Assembly: GCA_015655545.1 (NCBI GenBank)
Contig: JAATET010000071.1
Span: forward strand, 85,390-149,389
DNA: 64,000 nucleotides
Direction of reading: 5' to 3'
Source: Chthoniobacterales bacterium
GTDB lineage: Bacteria > Verrucomicrobiota > Verrucomicrobiia > Chthoniobacterales > JAATET01
A program made the translations under genes and the position numbers. Below are positions 33,192 through 52,917 of the stretch, piece by piece. Position 1 is the first letter of the stretch. Each line of letters begins with the position of its first letter. The notes beneath the pieces are model-generated. The model saw only the letters and a program-made list of their open reading frames with translations, was not told the DNA's origin and did not search any database.

Positions 33192-34913
33192 CTACGCGCG
33201 TCGAGTGTGCGCGGAGCGCCAGCGAGTGAGGGCGAGGATGCCGAGTGCGACGCCGAGGAGGCCGTAGGTGCCGGGCTCGGGCACCGCGGCATAGTTGAGC
33301 TGGAGGCTGTTGCCGACCTGCGAGAGTGTCCAGATGCTGCCGGGCTGGGTGGAGTTCGCGAAGCCGGCGAGGCCGATGGCGAATTGATCCGGGTCGAACG
33401 CCCAGCCGGTGGCGGCGGTGGCGATGATCCAGCTTTGGCTGAGGGCGGGGTCGAAGTGGACGGCGGCGCCGACGGCGGTGCCGTTCAAGGACTGGACGTG
33501 AATGGTGAACCTGGCCTCGGAGGTGCTGGTGATCGTGAGGGGGCCGCCGATGGAGAGGAAGTCCCAGCCCGCGCCGGCGGCGCCGGTCGCGTCGGCGAGA
33601 TTCCAGACGTATCGGCCGCCGGAGCCCCATGTCTCGGCGCCGGTGGTGAGGGTGGTGGGGAGGTAGCCGGCGGTGCTGCCGGAGGCGCCGGGGGAGATGG
33701 CGCCGCCGTCGAGGATGCTCAAGGGGCCGGTGATGCCGTGGCCGCCGAGGGTGCCCGCGCCCTGGATGACAATGGGCGAGCCGGCGGAAAGGGAGCCATG
33801 CACGATGAGCCTGCCTCCGGTGACGTTGGTGGGGCCGGTGTAGGTGCTCGCGCCGGTGAGGATGGTGGCGCCGGGGCCGGCCTGGGTGAAGCCGCCGTCG
33901 CCGCTGATGACGCCGCCGAGGGTGGTGGTAGTGCCGGCGCTCTGCCGGCCCTCGACGAGGCCGGCATTCGCGATGTTGTTGGGCAGGGTGGCGGTGGTGT
34001 TGAAGGCGAGTGTGCCGCCGGGGGCGATGGAGACGGCACTACTAACGAGGATGGAGCCGGCGGCGCCGTTGCCGATCTGCAAAGTGCCGGCGTTCACGGT
34101 GGTGGCGCCGGCGTAGGAATTCGTGGCGGTGAAGAGGGTGGTGCCGGGGCCGGTCTGGGTGAAGCTGCCTGAGATGCCGAGTATGGCGGCGGAGAAGGTG
34201 GTGGTGACGCCGGCGCTCTGGCGGCCCTCGACGAGGCCGTTGTTGTTGATGAAGCTGGAGTAGGTGCTCGGGGTATTGAAGGCCACGGTCGCGCCCACGG
34301 ACACGACGATGGCGTTGCTGGCGAGCGAGCCGGAAATGCCGTCGCCGATCTGCAAGGTGCCTTCGGTGACCTGGGTGGCGAAACCATAGGTATTCGCGCC
34401 GGTGAGGATGACGGTGCCGGGGGTGGTTTTCGTGAGCAGGGCCAGGCCCCCGAGGCTGGCGGAGACGGTGCCGGACTGAACCACGAAATCGGAGCCGCTG
34501 AGCGTGCCGCTGCCGATGATGGAACCGCCGGCGAGGGTGACGGCGCCGACGGTCTCGGTGTAGCCGGAGAGGTCGAATGTGCCGCCGGCGCCGATGGTGA
34601 GGGCGCCGGTATTGGCGATGCGCTCGTTGGCCGAGATGGCAAGGGTGCCGGCGCTCACGGTGGTGAGGCCGGTGTAGGTGTTGCTGCCGGAAAGGAAGAG
34701 GGTGCCGAGGCCGACTTTGATCACCTGGCCGTTGCCGCTGATGATGCCGCTCTGGATGGCGGTGCCGCTGGCGACGGAAAGCGTGATCGCGCCCGGCGCG
34801 GTGGTGGTGTAGTTGGTCGAATCGGCCAGGCCGTTCAAGTAATCGACGGTTTGCTGGGCGTGGAGCGAGGCGGCCGAAGCGAGAAACGCCAGGACAAGGG
34901 AATGTTTTTTCAT
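33192..34913 (-). CDS. PEP-CTERM protein with autotransporter-associated beta-strand repeats
   Basis: 573 residues. Signal peptide MKKHSLVLAFLASAASLHAQ. At least four passenger repeats of the type 'GLGTLFLSGSNTYTGLTTVS' / 'TPGTVILTGANTYGFATQVT' / 'GPGATILTGASTYTGPTNVT', forming a beta-helix. The C-terminus is a PEP-CTERM signal (VPEPGTYGLLGVALGILALT then RWR). Lies 39 bp upstream of the heparinase-like gene. It does not carry the Ig-like array domain; surface sorting by an exosortase is expected instead. Confidence 0.88.
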   Translation of the reverse strand: MKKHSLVLAFLASAASLHAQQTVDYLNGLADSTNYTTTAPGAITLSVASGTAIQSGIISGNGQVIKVGLGTLFLSGSNTYTGLTTVSAGTLAISANERIANTGALTIGAGGTFDLSGYTETVGAVTLAGGSIIGSGTLSGSDFVVQSGTVSASLGGLALLTKTTPGTVILTGANTYGFATQVTEGTLQIGDGISGSLASNAIVVSVGATVAFNTPSTYSSFINNNGLVEGRQSAGVTTTFSAAILGISGSFTQTGPGTTLFTATNSYAGATTVNAGTLQIGNGAAGSILVSSAVSIAPGGTLAFNTTATLPNNIANAGLVEGRQSAGTTTTLGGVISGDGGFTQAGPGATILTGASTYTGPTNVTGGRLIVHGSLSAGSPIVIQGAGTLGGHGITGPLSILDGGAISPGASGSTAGYLPTTLTTGAETWGSGGRYVWNLADATGAAGAGWDFLSIGGPLTITSTSEARFTIHVQSLNGTAVGAAVHFDPALSQSWIIATAATGWAFDPDQFAIGLAGFANSTQPGSIWTLSQVGNSLQLNYAAVPEPGTYGLLGVALGILALTRWRSAHTRRA

Positions 34914-34927
34914 AGGGTGTGGGCTGG

Positions 34928-34981
34928 TTATGGTTTGCGGGTGACGGTGAGTTTGTTTCTGCCGGGCTGGAACGGGCCTTT
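34928..34981 (-). pseudogene. Truncated 3' end of an array Ig-like domain
   Basis: Seventeen codons, KGPFQPGRNKLTVTRKP then stop, match the array signature 'LKPGKNKITVT...LTVTRKP' with the middle (AHGPGGDSAPA) deleted. It lies in front of the 21-bp tandem repeats. It is the trace of a deleted array gene. Confidence 0.75.
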
Positions 34982-34982
34982 G

Positions 34983-35096
34983 ATTGGGGAAACGCGTTGC
35001 GCCGGGTTGGAAACGCGTTGCACCGGGTTGGAAACGCGTTGCGCCGGGTTGGAAACGCGTTGCGCCGAATTGGAAACGCGTTGCGTTTGGAGCCGC
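34983..35096. repeat. Five 21-bp tandem repeats with AACGCGTT dyads
   Basis: Unit TTGGAAACGCGTTGCGCCGGG, five copies, the first and last slightly altered. Each holds the palindrome AACGCGTT, so dyads are spaced by 21 bp, two helical turns. The block ends 20 bp before the antitoxin ATG and could be its operator array. 21 bp is also seven codons, so it may instead be microsatellite-like expansion. Confidence 0.75.
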
Positions 35097-35115
35097 CCGT
35101 CTTTAAGGTGCGGGC

Positions 35116-35313
35116 ATGAGCGCGAGCGAGATACTGGTCTCCCTGCCGAGCCTCTCGGACGAGGATTTGCGGCAGGTCGCGTATTCGCTCGACCGCGTGC
35201 TGCGGGAGCGCCGCCCTCCGGTGATCGACGATGCCTACGGCACGCTGACCGAGGAGGACGTGACGACCGTGGTGGCGGAGGCGTGGGACGAGCTCGATGG
35301 GCGCGGAGCCTAG
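35116..35313 (+). CDS. Putative antitoxin partner of MazF-like toxin
   Basis: 65 residues: MSASEILVSLPSLSDEDLRQ, 'VAYSLDRVLRERRPPVIDDA', 'VVAEAWDELDGRGA'. Small, acidic and helical, like the C-terminal binding tails of many antitoxins; no DNA-binding fold can be assigned with certainty. It overlaps the toxin start by 17 nt and follows the 21-bp dyad repeats, which suggests autoregulation. Confidence 0.75.
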   Translation: MSASEILVSLPSLSDEDLRQVAYSLDRVLRERRPPVIDDAYGTLTEEDVTTVVAEAWDELDGRGA

Positions 35314-44805: not shown

Positions 44806-45189
44806 TTATGGCTGCGAAATGGTGCGCGGGCGCGGCTGCCCGGCGCGGGCGCGAGGGAGAAAGCGGACGAGCGAGAGCGGCGCGCGCACCCGCGAGGGCG
44901 GCTCGCACCGGGGCATGGAGGCCTCGGGCTCCCGCACGGCGGCCTCGGGCCCCTGCGAGGGTGCCTTGGGCTCCTGCGCGGAGAGATCGCACATGTGCGA
45001 GGCGGCCTCGCACTCGCGCCGGGGGAAATCGCACCCCTCCGAGGCGGCCTCGCACCCGCGCGAGGGCGGCACGGACTCGTGCGAGGATGCCTCGGGCGCG
45101 GGCCGGTGGGCCGGGGAGACGGCCGGGAGCGCCAGCGGGGCGGGCGGGCCGCAGGGCGCGGCGGGAGTTTTACGGATGCGCGTTTCCAT
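44806..45189 (-). CDS. Low-complexity Pro/Ser/Glu protein, doubtful
   Basis: 127 residues from METRIRKTPAAPCGPPAPLA. The rest is made of degenerate 7-residue units such as 'RGCEAASEGCDFPRRECEAA' and 'PKAPSQGPEAAVREPEASMP'. The plus strand is also open in two frames over this DNA, so a real gene cannot be distinguished from a repetitive GC-rich spacer. It is co-directional with the 204-residue gene 55 bp downstream. Confidence 0.4.
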   Translation of the reverse strand: METRIRKTPAAPCGPPAPLALPAVSPAHRPAPEASSHESVPPSRGCEAASEGCDFPRRECEAASHMCDLSAQEPKAPSQGPEAAVREPEASMPRCEPPSRVRAPLSLVRFLPRARAGQPRPRTISQP

Positions 45190-45255: not shown

Positions 45256-45570
45256 ATGGCCGTCGCCGACCCGATCCATCACATCCGGCTGGATGACCGC
45301 GACCGCGCGTGGATCGACGACACTCGCGTGAAGGTCGTCGAGGTGGCCATGGATCACCTCGCCCACGGCTGGAGCGCGGAGGAAATCCACCGCCAGCACC
45401 CCGATCTCTCCCTGGCGCAGGCGCACGCCGCCCTCGCCTACTACTACGACCACCAGGCGGAGTTCGACGAAGCCATCGCGCAGAGCGCCCTCGCGGCGGA
45501 AAAGCTCGCCGCCGCCACCGCGGACTCCCCCGGCCGGCGCAAGCTGCGCGCCATGGGCCTGCTGCATTAG
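45256..45570 (+). CDS. DUF433-type antitoxin
   Basis: 104 residues. DUF433 core 'WIDDTRVKVVEVAMDHLAHG' followed by 'WSAEEIHRQHPDLSLAQAHA' and 'ALAYYYDHQAEFDEAIAQSA', an HTH-containing fold usually paired with DUF5615 PIN-like toxins, as here 3 bp downstream. Transcribed against the array. Confidence 0.88.
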   Translation: MAVADPIHHIRLDDRDRAWIDDTRVKVVEVAMDHLAHGWSAEEIHRQHPDLSLAQAHAALAYYYDHQAEFDEAIAQSALAAEKLAAATADSPGRRKLRAMGLLH

Positions 45571-45573
45571 GCC

Positions 45574-45924
45574 GTGGGCCTTCCATTCTACATGGACGTG
45601 CACGTCCCGCTGGCCATCACGGAGGCCCTGCGGCGCAAGGGCGTCGATGTGCTCCGGGCGCAGGAGGACGGCGCCGCCCGGCTGGAGGATGCCGCGCTGC
45701 TCGACCGCGCAACGGCCCTGGAGCGCGTGCTCTTCACCCAGGATGAGGACTTCTTGGTTGAGTGCGCACATCGGCAGGCGCGGGTCACGGCATTCTACGG
45801 CGTCGTCTATGCCCACCAGATGCGGGTGACGATCGGCCAATGCGTGGCCGATCTGGAACTCATCTCGAAAGTCTATGCGCCTGCCGACATGGCGGGGCGC
45901 GTCGAGCATCTGCCGCTGCGGTAG
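45574..45924 (+). CDS. DUF5615 PIN-like toxin
   Basis: 116 residues from a GTG; '[20 protein letters not shown]' at the start provides the first acidic residue of the PIN-like site, and '[18 protein letters not shown]' the second acidic cluster. DUF5615 proteins are presumed nucleases of type II TA modules. Forms a pair with the DUF433 gene just upstream. Confidence 0.87.
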
Positions 45925-52334: not shown

Positions 52335-52696
52335 CTAGATGGGAAGCACTCTGGCTTTCGTGCGATCGGGGAGGATGGTAACGATCGCTCCCCTCTCCAG
52401 TTCCTCCCGGAATTGATGCAGTGCGGCGAGGATGATAGGTCCGAGAACGCCGGGCGTGACGTCATCCACCCGGGCTTGAATGACGCTTGGTTTATGCGAG
52501 GCGGCGTGGGCCAGGAGGGTGCCGAAATCCAGATCGTGGGTGAAGACGATATATCCTCGGACGCTGGCGTGCTCGAAGATGACTTTATCCTCCACATCCA
52601 CCGCACCGACCGAGGACCAGTGGATGGAGGCTATGTGATGAAGATCGAAGTAGCCGACCCACTCGGGGTGAGGCAGACGTCGATAAGCAGCGTCAT
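52335..52696 (-). pseudogene. DUF5615 PIN-like toxin with a frameshift after codon 10
   Basis: The ATG at 52696 overlaps the antitoxin stop (ATGA) and starts MTLLIDVCLTP, the usual first strand of the family. The rest of the domain, 'EWVGYFDLHHIASIHWSSVG', 'GYIVFTHDLDFGTLLAHAAS', 'GAIVTILPDRTKARVLPI', is in another frame, joined at a CACCCCGAG sequence near 52665 by one missing base. The track's 156-residue ORF reads the second frame with a shadow N-terminus. Either an inactivated toxin, a sequencing error, or a C-run slippage site. Confidence 0.8.
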
Positions 52697-52917
52697 GCGG
52701 GCTGCAAGTCCGCATCAAATGCCTCCGTGAGCCATGTGGCGTAGGAGAGTGCGGCGGGGATGTCTTCCTGCTCGAGGTAGGGATACATCTGGAGAATATC
52801 CGCATGGGTGCGCCCGGCGGCCACCAGGCCGGTGATGGTGCCGACGGTCACCCGCAGGCCGCGGATGCATGGCTTGCCGCCCATCACGAGGGGATTTCTG
52901 GTGATGCGTGGATGCAT
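52693..52917 (-). CDS. DUF433-type antitoxin
   Basis: 74 residues: 'MHPRITRNPLVMGGKPCIRG' then 'LRVTVGTITGLVAAGRTHAD' and 'ILQMYPYLEQEDIPAALSYA', the full DUF433 pattern. Its stop overlaps the toxin's ATG by 4 nt. Unlike the other two TA pairs in the array, it is in the same direction as the array genes. Confidence 0.9.
   Translation of the reverse strand: MHPRITRNPLVMGGKPCIRGLRVTVGTITGLVAAGRTHADILQMYPYLEQEDIPAALSYATWLTEAFDADLQPA

Follow-up and report, generated by a model that had tools for sequence, protein, structure and literature searches.

A 21-bp tandem array at the promoter of a MazF-type toxin-antitoxin operon, probably amplified from the -35 segment

Five tandem, dyad-bearing units lie directly upstream of a MazF-type toxin-antitoxin (TA) operon in the 64,000-nt stretch of DNA analyzed here (the window), and the question is whether such units form a cooperative operator, a coding expansion inside a dead surface gene, or something else. 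The arrangement reported in the preliminary description was borne out, with units starting at 34986, 35007, 35028, 35049, and 35070 in exact 21-bp steps and the array ending at 35090 (Table 1). Two details required correction: the repeat begins at 34986 rather than 34983, and the gap between the end of the last unit and the antitoxin ATG at 35116 is 25 bp rather than 20 bp. TRF delimited the array at 34988 to 35085, with a period of 21, 4.7 copies, 94% matches, and a score of 175. Neighboring units share 16 to 20 of their 21 bases; GGAAACGCGTTGC is invariant across all five, and variation is confined to the remaining eight positions. The exact 21-mer that had been quoted is present as one copy, the rest being 1 to 3 bases off, mostly at the array edges. 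The dyad AACGCGTT occurs five times in the whole window, always inside the array and at a spacing of exactly 21 bp, and the full 21-bp unit with up to 3 mismatches allowed was found 5 times in the window compared to 0 in shuffles. The presence of the array is thus far above chance expectation.

Table 1. Features at and around the 21-bp array (window positions)
Feature	Position	Strand	Basis
PATR-repeat, PEP-CTERM surface protein, divergent neighbor	33192..34913	-	ORF + domain match
3' remnant of C-terminal surface domain (ending in PGRNKLTVTRKP and stop), internal deletion, abuts array	34928..34985	-	ORF + domain comparison
Tandem array of five 21-bp units sharing the core GGAAACGCGTTGC	34986..35090	+	TRF + unit alignment
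AACGCGTT dyad copy 1	34991..34998	no strand	exact match
AACGCGTT dyad copy 2	35012..35019	no strand	exact match
AACGCGTT dyad copy 3	35033..35040	no strand	exact match
AACGCGTT dyad copy 4	35054..35061	no strand	exact match
AACGCGTT dyad copy 5, -41..-34 from ATG, overlaps predicted -35 box	35075..35082	no strand	exact match
Predicted -35 box TTGCGT, within last repeat unit	35081..35086	+	ortholog promoter pattern + TTG/TANNNT spacing
Predicted -10 box TAAGGT, 6 bp 5' of ATG	35104..35109	+	TANNNT at -12/-13 in 19/24 TA starts
Putative antitoxin, 65 aa, unnamed family	35116..35313	+	ORF + ortholog alignment
MazF/PemK-type toxin, 106 aa	35297..35617	+	PF02452, E 6.5e-13

The five dyads are one dyad, duplicated. 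Because the units are copies of one, the dyad and its phasing count as a single observation and not as five, and the case is a caution that repeated dyads generated by tandem duplication are one observation rather than many. Both the dyad and the 21-bp phase arise trivially from the copying of one unit; among random 21-mers of the same genome that were tandemized, 10.3% contained a perfect dyad 8 bp or longer. Therefore, the earlier argument that dyads 21 bp apart lie on the same helix face, as expected of a cooperative operator, holds as far as the exact phase is concerned but does not supply independent evidence for an operator.

Analysis of the downstream genes showed an arrangement typical of MazF/PemK type II TA pairs. 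The toxin belongs to the PemK/MazF family and matches MazF7 among PDB sequences (E 1.8e-5), and a conserved small gene upstream (35116-35313) overlaps the toxin start. A small gene of the same type precedes the toxin at about 20 orthologous loci, and its 65-aa product in the window is a putative antitoxin. The family to which this protein belongs has 60 to 75 aa, is encoded before the toxin in numerous Verrucomicrobia and in a small number of other phyla, and aligns to the consensus MxxAVAxILxEVxxLSxxERxELRR...DLTDxDxxALAAESFRALDEEE. Neither Pfam nor NCBIfam gives it a curated name, no DNA-binding family was matched in Pfam, NCBIfam, or PDB sequences, and a profile search across the phylum added just one new match. 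The AlphaFold model of the antitoxin is weak (pLDDT 79, pTM 0.44), with two N-terminal helices, a hairpin, and a C-terminal helix, and a PDB fold search using this weak model as the query gave no match.

Comparison of the TA starts revealed two recurring promoter signals. First, a TANNNT motif starts at -12 or -13 from the antitoxin ATG in 19 of the 24 TA starts that were aligned on this codon, of which three are from the window and 21 from orthologs, compared to a mean of 1.16 and a maximum of 6 in 5,000 shuffles. Second, TTG is present at -38 to -32 in 25 of 29 TA starts. TA pairs of this type are thus predicted to have a common leaderless promoter, TTGNNN-17-TANNNT-6-ATG, which in the window would read TTGCGT (35081)-17-TAAGGT (35104)-6-ATG (35116). 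Within the array, TTGCGT at 35081 alone among the TTG occurrences has a TANNNT 15 to 19 bp downstream, so it is the last unit that appears to contain the -35 box; the other four units each repeat this -35 segment but have no -10 box. Bacterial leaderless genes have been described as marked by a TANNNT about 12 bp 5' of the start codon (PMC3160421), and TAAGGT lies at -12. Both the signal and the distance are the same in most of the TA starts tested, although the text of that paper does not mention Verrucomicrobia. A generic sigma-70 scan based on the Escherichia coli consensus called no promoter here, the two boxes being weak matches to that consensus. The predicted pattern (leaderless, TTG-17-TANNNT-6-ATG) would provide a comparative promoter map for the TA operons of a poorly studied order.

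Part of the repeat unit was also found as a single copy in orthologs. The sequence ACGCG, beside the -35 box, was present at -43 to -39 in 5 of 27 orthologs (L065, L069, L089, L305, and L323), compared to 0.21 expected from an order-1 model and 0.26 from sliding control windows, a position that was chosen from the window's own last copy and a count that is not fully independent because L065 and L069 may be related. The longer ACGCGT was found at this position in 2 orthologs compared to 0.04 expected, and the L065 ortholog carries the complete AACGCGTT at -43. The fifth dyad copy of the array coincides in place with the single ACGCG core of these orthologs, which make up a minority of the set. 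In the same genome, ACGCG accompanied 1 of 93 ORFs with TANNNT at -12/-13 (Fisher p = 0.0025 against the orthologs). Because ACGCG also precedes the -35 box of one non-TA gene in this genome, the core may be a promoter feature rather than a TA site.

The array, as distinct from its core, was detected at a single locus. No other copy was found in the 3.0-Mb genome, none was present in 57 relatives or in 388 genomes sampled across the phylum, and nothing comparable was located 5' of about 57 other MazF loci or in further orthologs. The preliminary description had proposed to look for the same repeats upstream of orthologous pairs, where the single core rather than the array was found. It had also reasoned that orthologous pairs lacking the repeats, with repeats found only in the coding sequence of the surface-gene array, would speak against an operator; the first half of this pattern was observed, but repeats in that coding sequence were not. 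Its absence from the relatives searched and from the MazF loci argues that the array is not a conserved operator. Several other candidate explanations were rejected as well. The best full-core match in the genome outside the array (GGAAACGCGTTGCGC) falls within a coding gene, presumably nadD-like as judged by eye, which speaks against a dispersed regulator site. Viral contigs, phages, and plasmids gave no match to the unit, which speaks against a mobile origin. RNA structure was dismissed because neither strand folded better than its shuffles (z of -0.05 and 0.18) and Rfam gave no match. In three genomes of the same genus, the surface-gene cluster around the operon is missing as a unit, so that synteny gave no readable empty site. 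A search of the literature turned up no 21-bp intergenic repeats from Verrucomicrobia.

The array is probably a species-specific minisatellite that arose when the 21-bp segment carrying the -35 box of the TA promoter was duplicated in tandem and in register. It consists of near-identical, head-to-tail, locus-specific units, as intergenic minisatellites do. The last unit overlaps the predicted -35 box, the ortholog core occupies the same place, and the orthologs lack the array, which together indicate a promoter-linked site and, in the five-copy array, a local expansion. The most plausible reading is that a -35 segment including the conserved single-copy core was recently amplified. In the ancestral state, each TA promoter would have had one functional core (ACGCG adjoining the TTGC of the -35 box), as in some orthologs today. 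Duplication of the segment in register would then have raised the number of cores to five, with the last copy continuing as the -35 region and the four further copies upstream serving as extra, helically phased sites for whatever binds the core, be it RNA polymerase, the TA complex, or another regulator. The extra copies would most likely tune expression or be near neutral.

Bacterial promoter-associated tandem repeats (VNTRs) lie beside a promoter and could vary in number; the present array likewise adjoins a promoter and is known from one genome. It falls among promoter-overlapping tandem repeats at TA operons, and repeat DNA in TA promoters is already known (PMC4803016). The mazEF alternating palindrome, regions I and II of kis-kid, and the L and S palindromes of yefM-yoeB similarly overlap or lie just 5' of the boxes from which an antitoxin-toxin operon is transcribed (PMC4803016), whereas here there are five near-identical tandem copies, the copy number is not conserved, and the antitoxin has no recognized DNA-binding domain. 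The BOX element in the pneumococcal yefM-yoeB promoter region is also repeat DNA (PMC4803016), but BOX is a dispersed repeat family whereas the unit described here is unique to its locus and contains the operon's own predicted -35 box. Similarly, the heptad operator of omega-epsilon-zeta consists of short repeats arrayed 5' of a promoter linked to a TA system, but its units are 7 bp, compared to 21 bp here, and are bound by a separate RHH repressor, omega (PMC4803016). What sets the present case apart is a near-identical 21-bp array that is unique to one species and has an apparent origin from the -35 segment. If this is right, a single promoter-proximal TA site was expanded to a phased array in one lineage while the single-site state is still visible in relatives, and a link between copy number and TA expression would be directly testable.

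Three broader alternatives were weighed against local amplification of the -35 segment. It is doubtful that the array is a cooperative autoregulatory operator, at which binding of the antitoxin or the TA complex to the five phased dyads would repress the operon. As a rule, a TA operator consists of a palindrome, perfect or imperfect, that overlaps the promoter (PMC4803016), and the last unit, with its predicted -35 box, lies in such a position. The dyads overlap the -35 box or sit just 5' of it, their phase is exactly 21 bp, and the single core is found at the same place in some orthologs. However, no ortholog of the same type has the array, the copying of one unit is enough to account for both dyad and phase, and the antitoxin has neither a DNA-binding family match nor, in its weak model, a fold match. 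The earlier proposal of an autoregulatory site for the antitoxin or TA complex therefore keeps its promoter-overlapping position, in a promoter of conserved architecture and with a core that recurs in orthologs, but not an array shared by those orthologs or an antitoxin recognizable as DNA binding.

The second and third alternatives concern other arrays of the same period. In 1.35 Mb of the same genome, TRF detected only two strong multicopy period-21 arrays, both in the window and both before TA-type pairs. The second one (44887-45095) consists of degenerate period-21 dyads (TCGCAC..GTGCGA, CGAGGCGGCCTCG) between divergent genes, about 160 bp 5' of a DUF433/DUF5615 pair at 45256-45924. Two 21-bp arrays in a relative, G083 (L058, 695-1028, and L224, 6986-7254), have similar units (CCTCGYTCKGAGYGARGYCAT) and a common 3' end, CAGCGGAGCTTT; the L058 array precedes a RelB-like/MazF pair, and the L224 array is not at a TA operon. 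On one strand, the changes among the L058 and L224 units preserve G-U pairing, a hint that the element acts as RNA. Another period-21 array, at L070 (434-590; dyad TTCCNTGNNCANGGAA), is downstream of a gene and not at a TA start. No 21-bp array was found in 321 kb from 20 relatives or at 30 DUF5615 loci. The third TA-type pair of the window (52336-52917, minus strand) has an intact DUF433 gene, with TANNNT 12 bp before its ATG, a DUF5615 toxin frame that looks broken, and no 21-bp array. A TA link is supported by the two window arrays and by L058, itself found through its TA pair, but was rejected for 21-bp arrays in general, given that L224 and L070 are away from TA starts and that the third window pair and the 30 DUF5615 loci lack an array. 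Exactly 21 bp thus recurs in unrelated sequences in this order, in small numbers and with the L058 and L070 arrays found through MazF.

It is unlikely that the array is a neutral intergenic minisatellite that plays no part in regulation and belongs to a class of 21-bp arrays, each restricted to one locus, in these bacteria. The unrelated intergenic arrays at 44887-45095, L058, L224, and L070 fit such a class, and L224 is not at a TA operon; however, the last unit here has the predicted -35 box and the core recurs there in orthologs, which makes neutrality of every unit unlikely. Also unlikely is that intergenic arrays of unrelated sequence, with dyads in helical phase and a period of exactly 21 bp, and frequently located 5' of TA or other promoters, constitute an expandable cis-regulatory class in which the MazF array would be a case with its ancestral single site still visible in relatives.

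The alternative raised at the outset, a seven-codon expansion inside a dead surface-array gene, is highly improbable. In its favor, one minus-strand frame stays open through the array and into the domain remnant at 34928. However, that frame runs on only in the antisense direction relative to the TA operon, further frames are open as well, and the unit is absent from all 17 domain genes on the contig.

The surroundings of the operon showed features of their own. The TA pair is embedded in a cluster of 17 minus-strand copies of a C-terminal domain on the contig. In the remnant at 34928-34985 (minus strand), the stretch between two short LTVT/ITVT repeats has apparently been lost, and the array adjoins directly. 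The 17 genes of this cluster span about 29900 to 60400 of the window and end in this same domain of about 83 aa, of which the genome has 32. The proteins that bear it are otherwise different and of extracellular type, and it looks like a sorting or anchoring domain.
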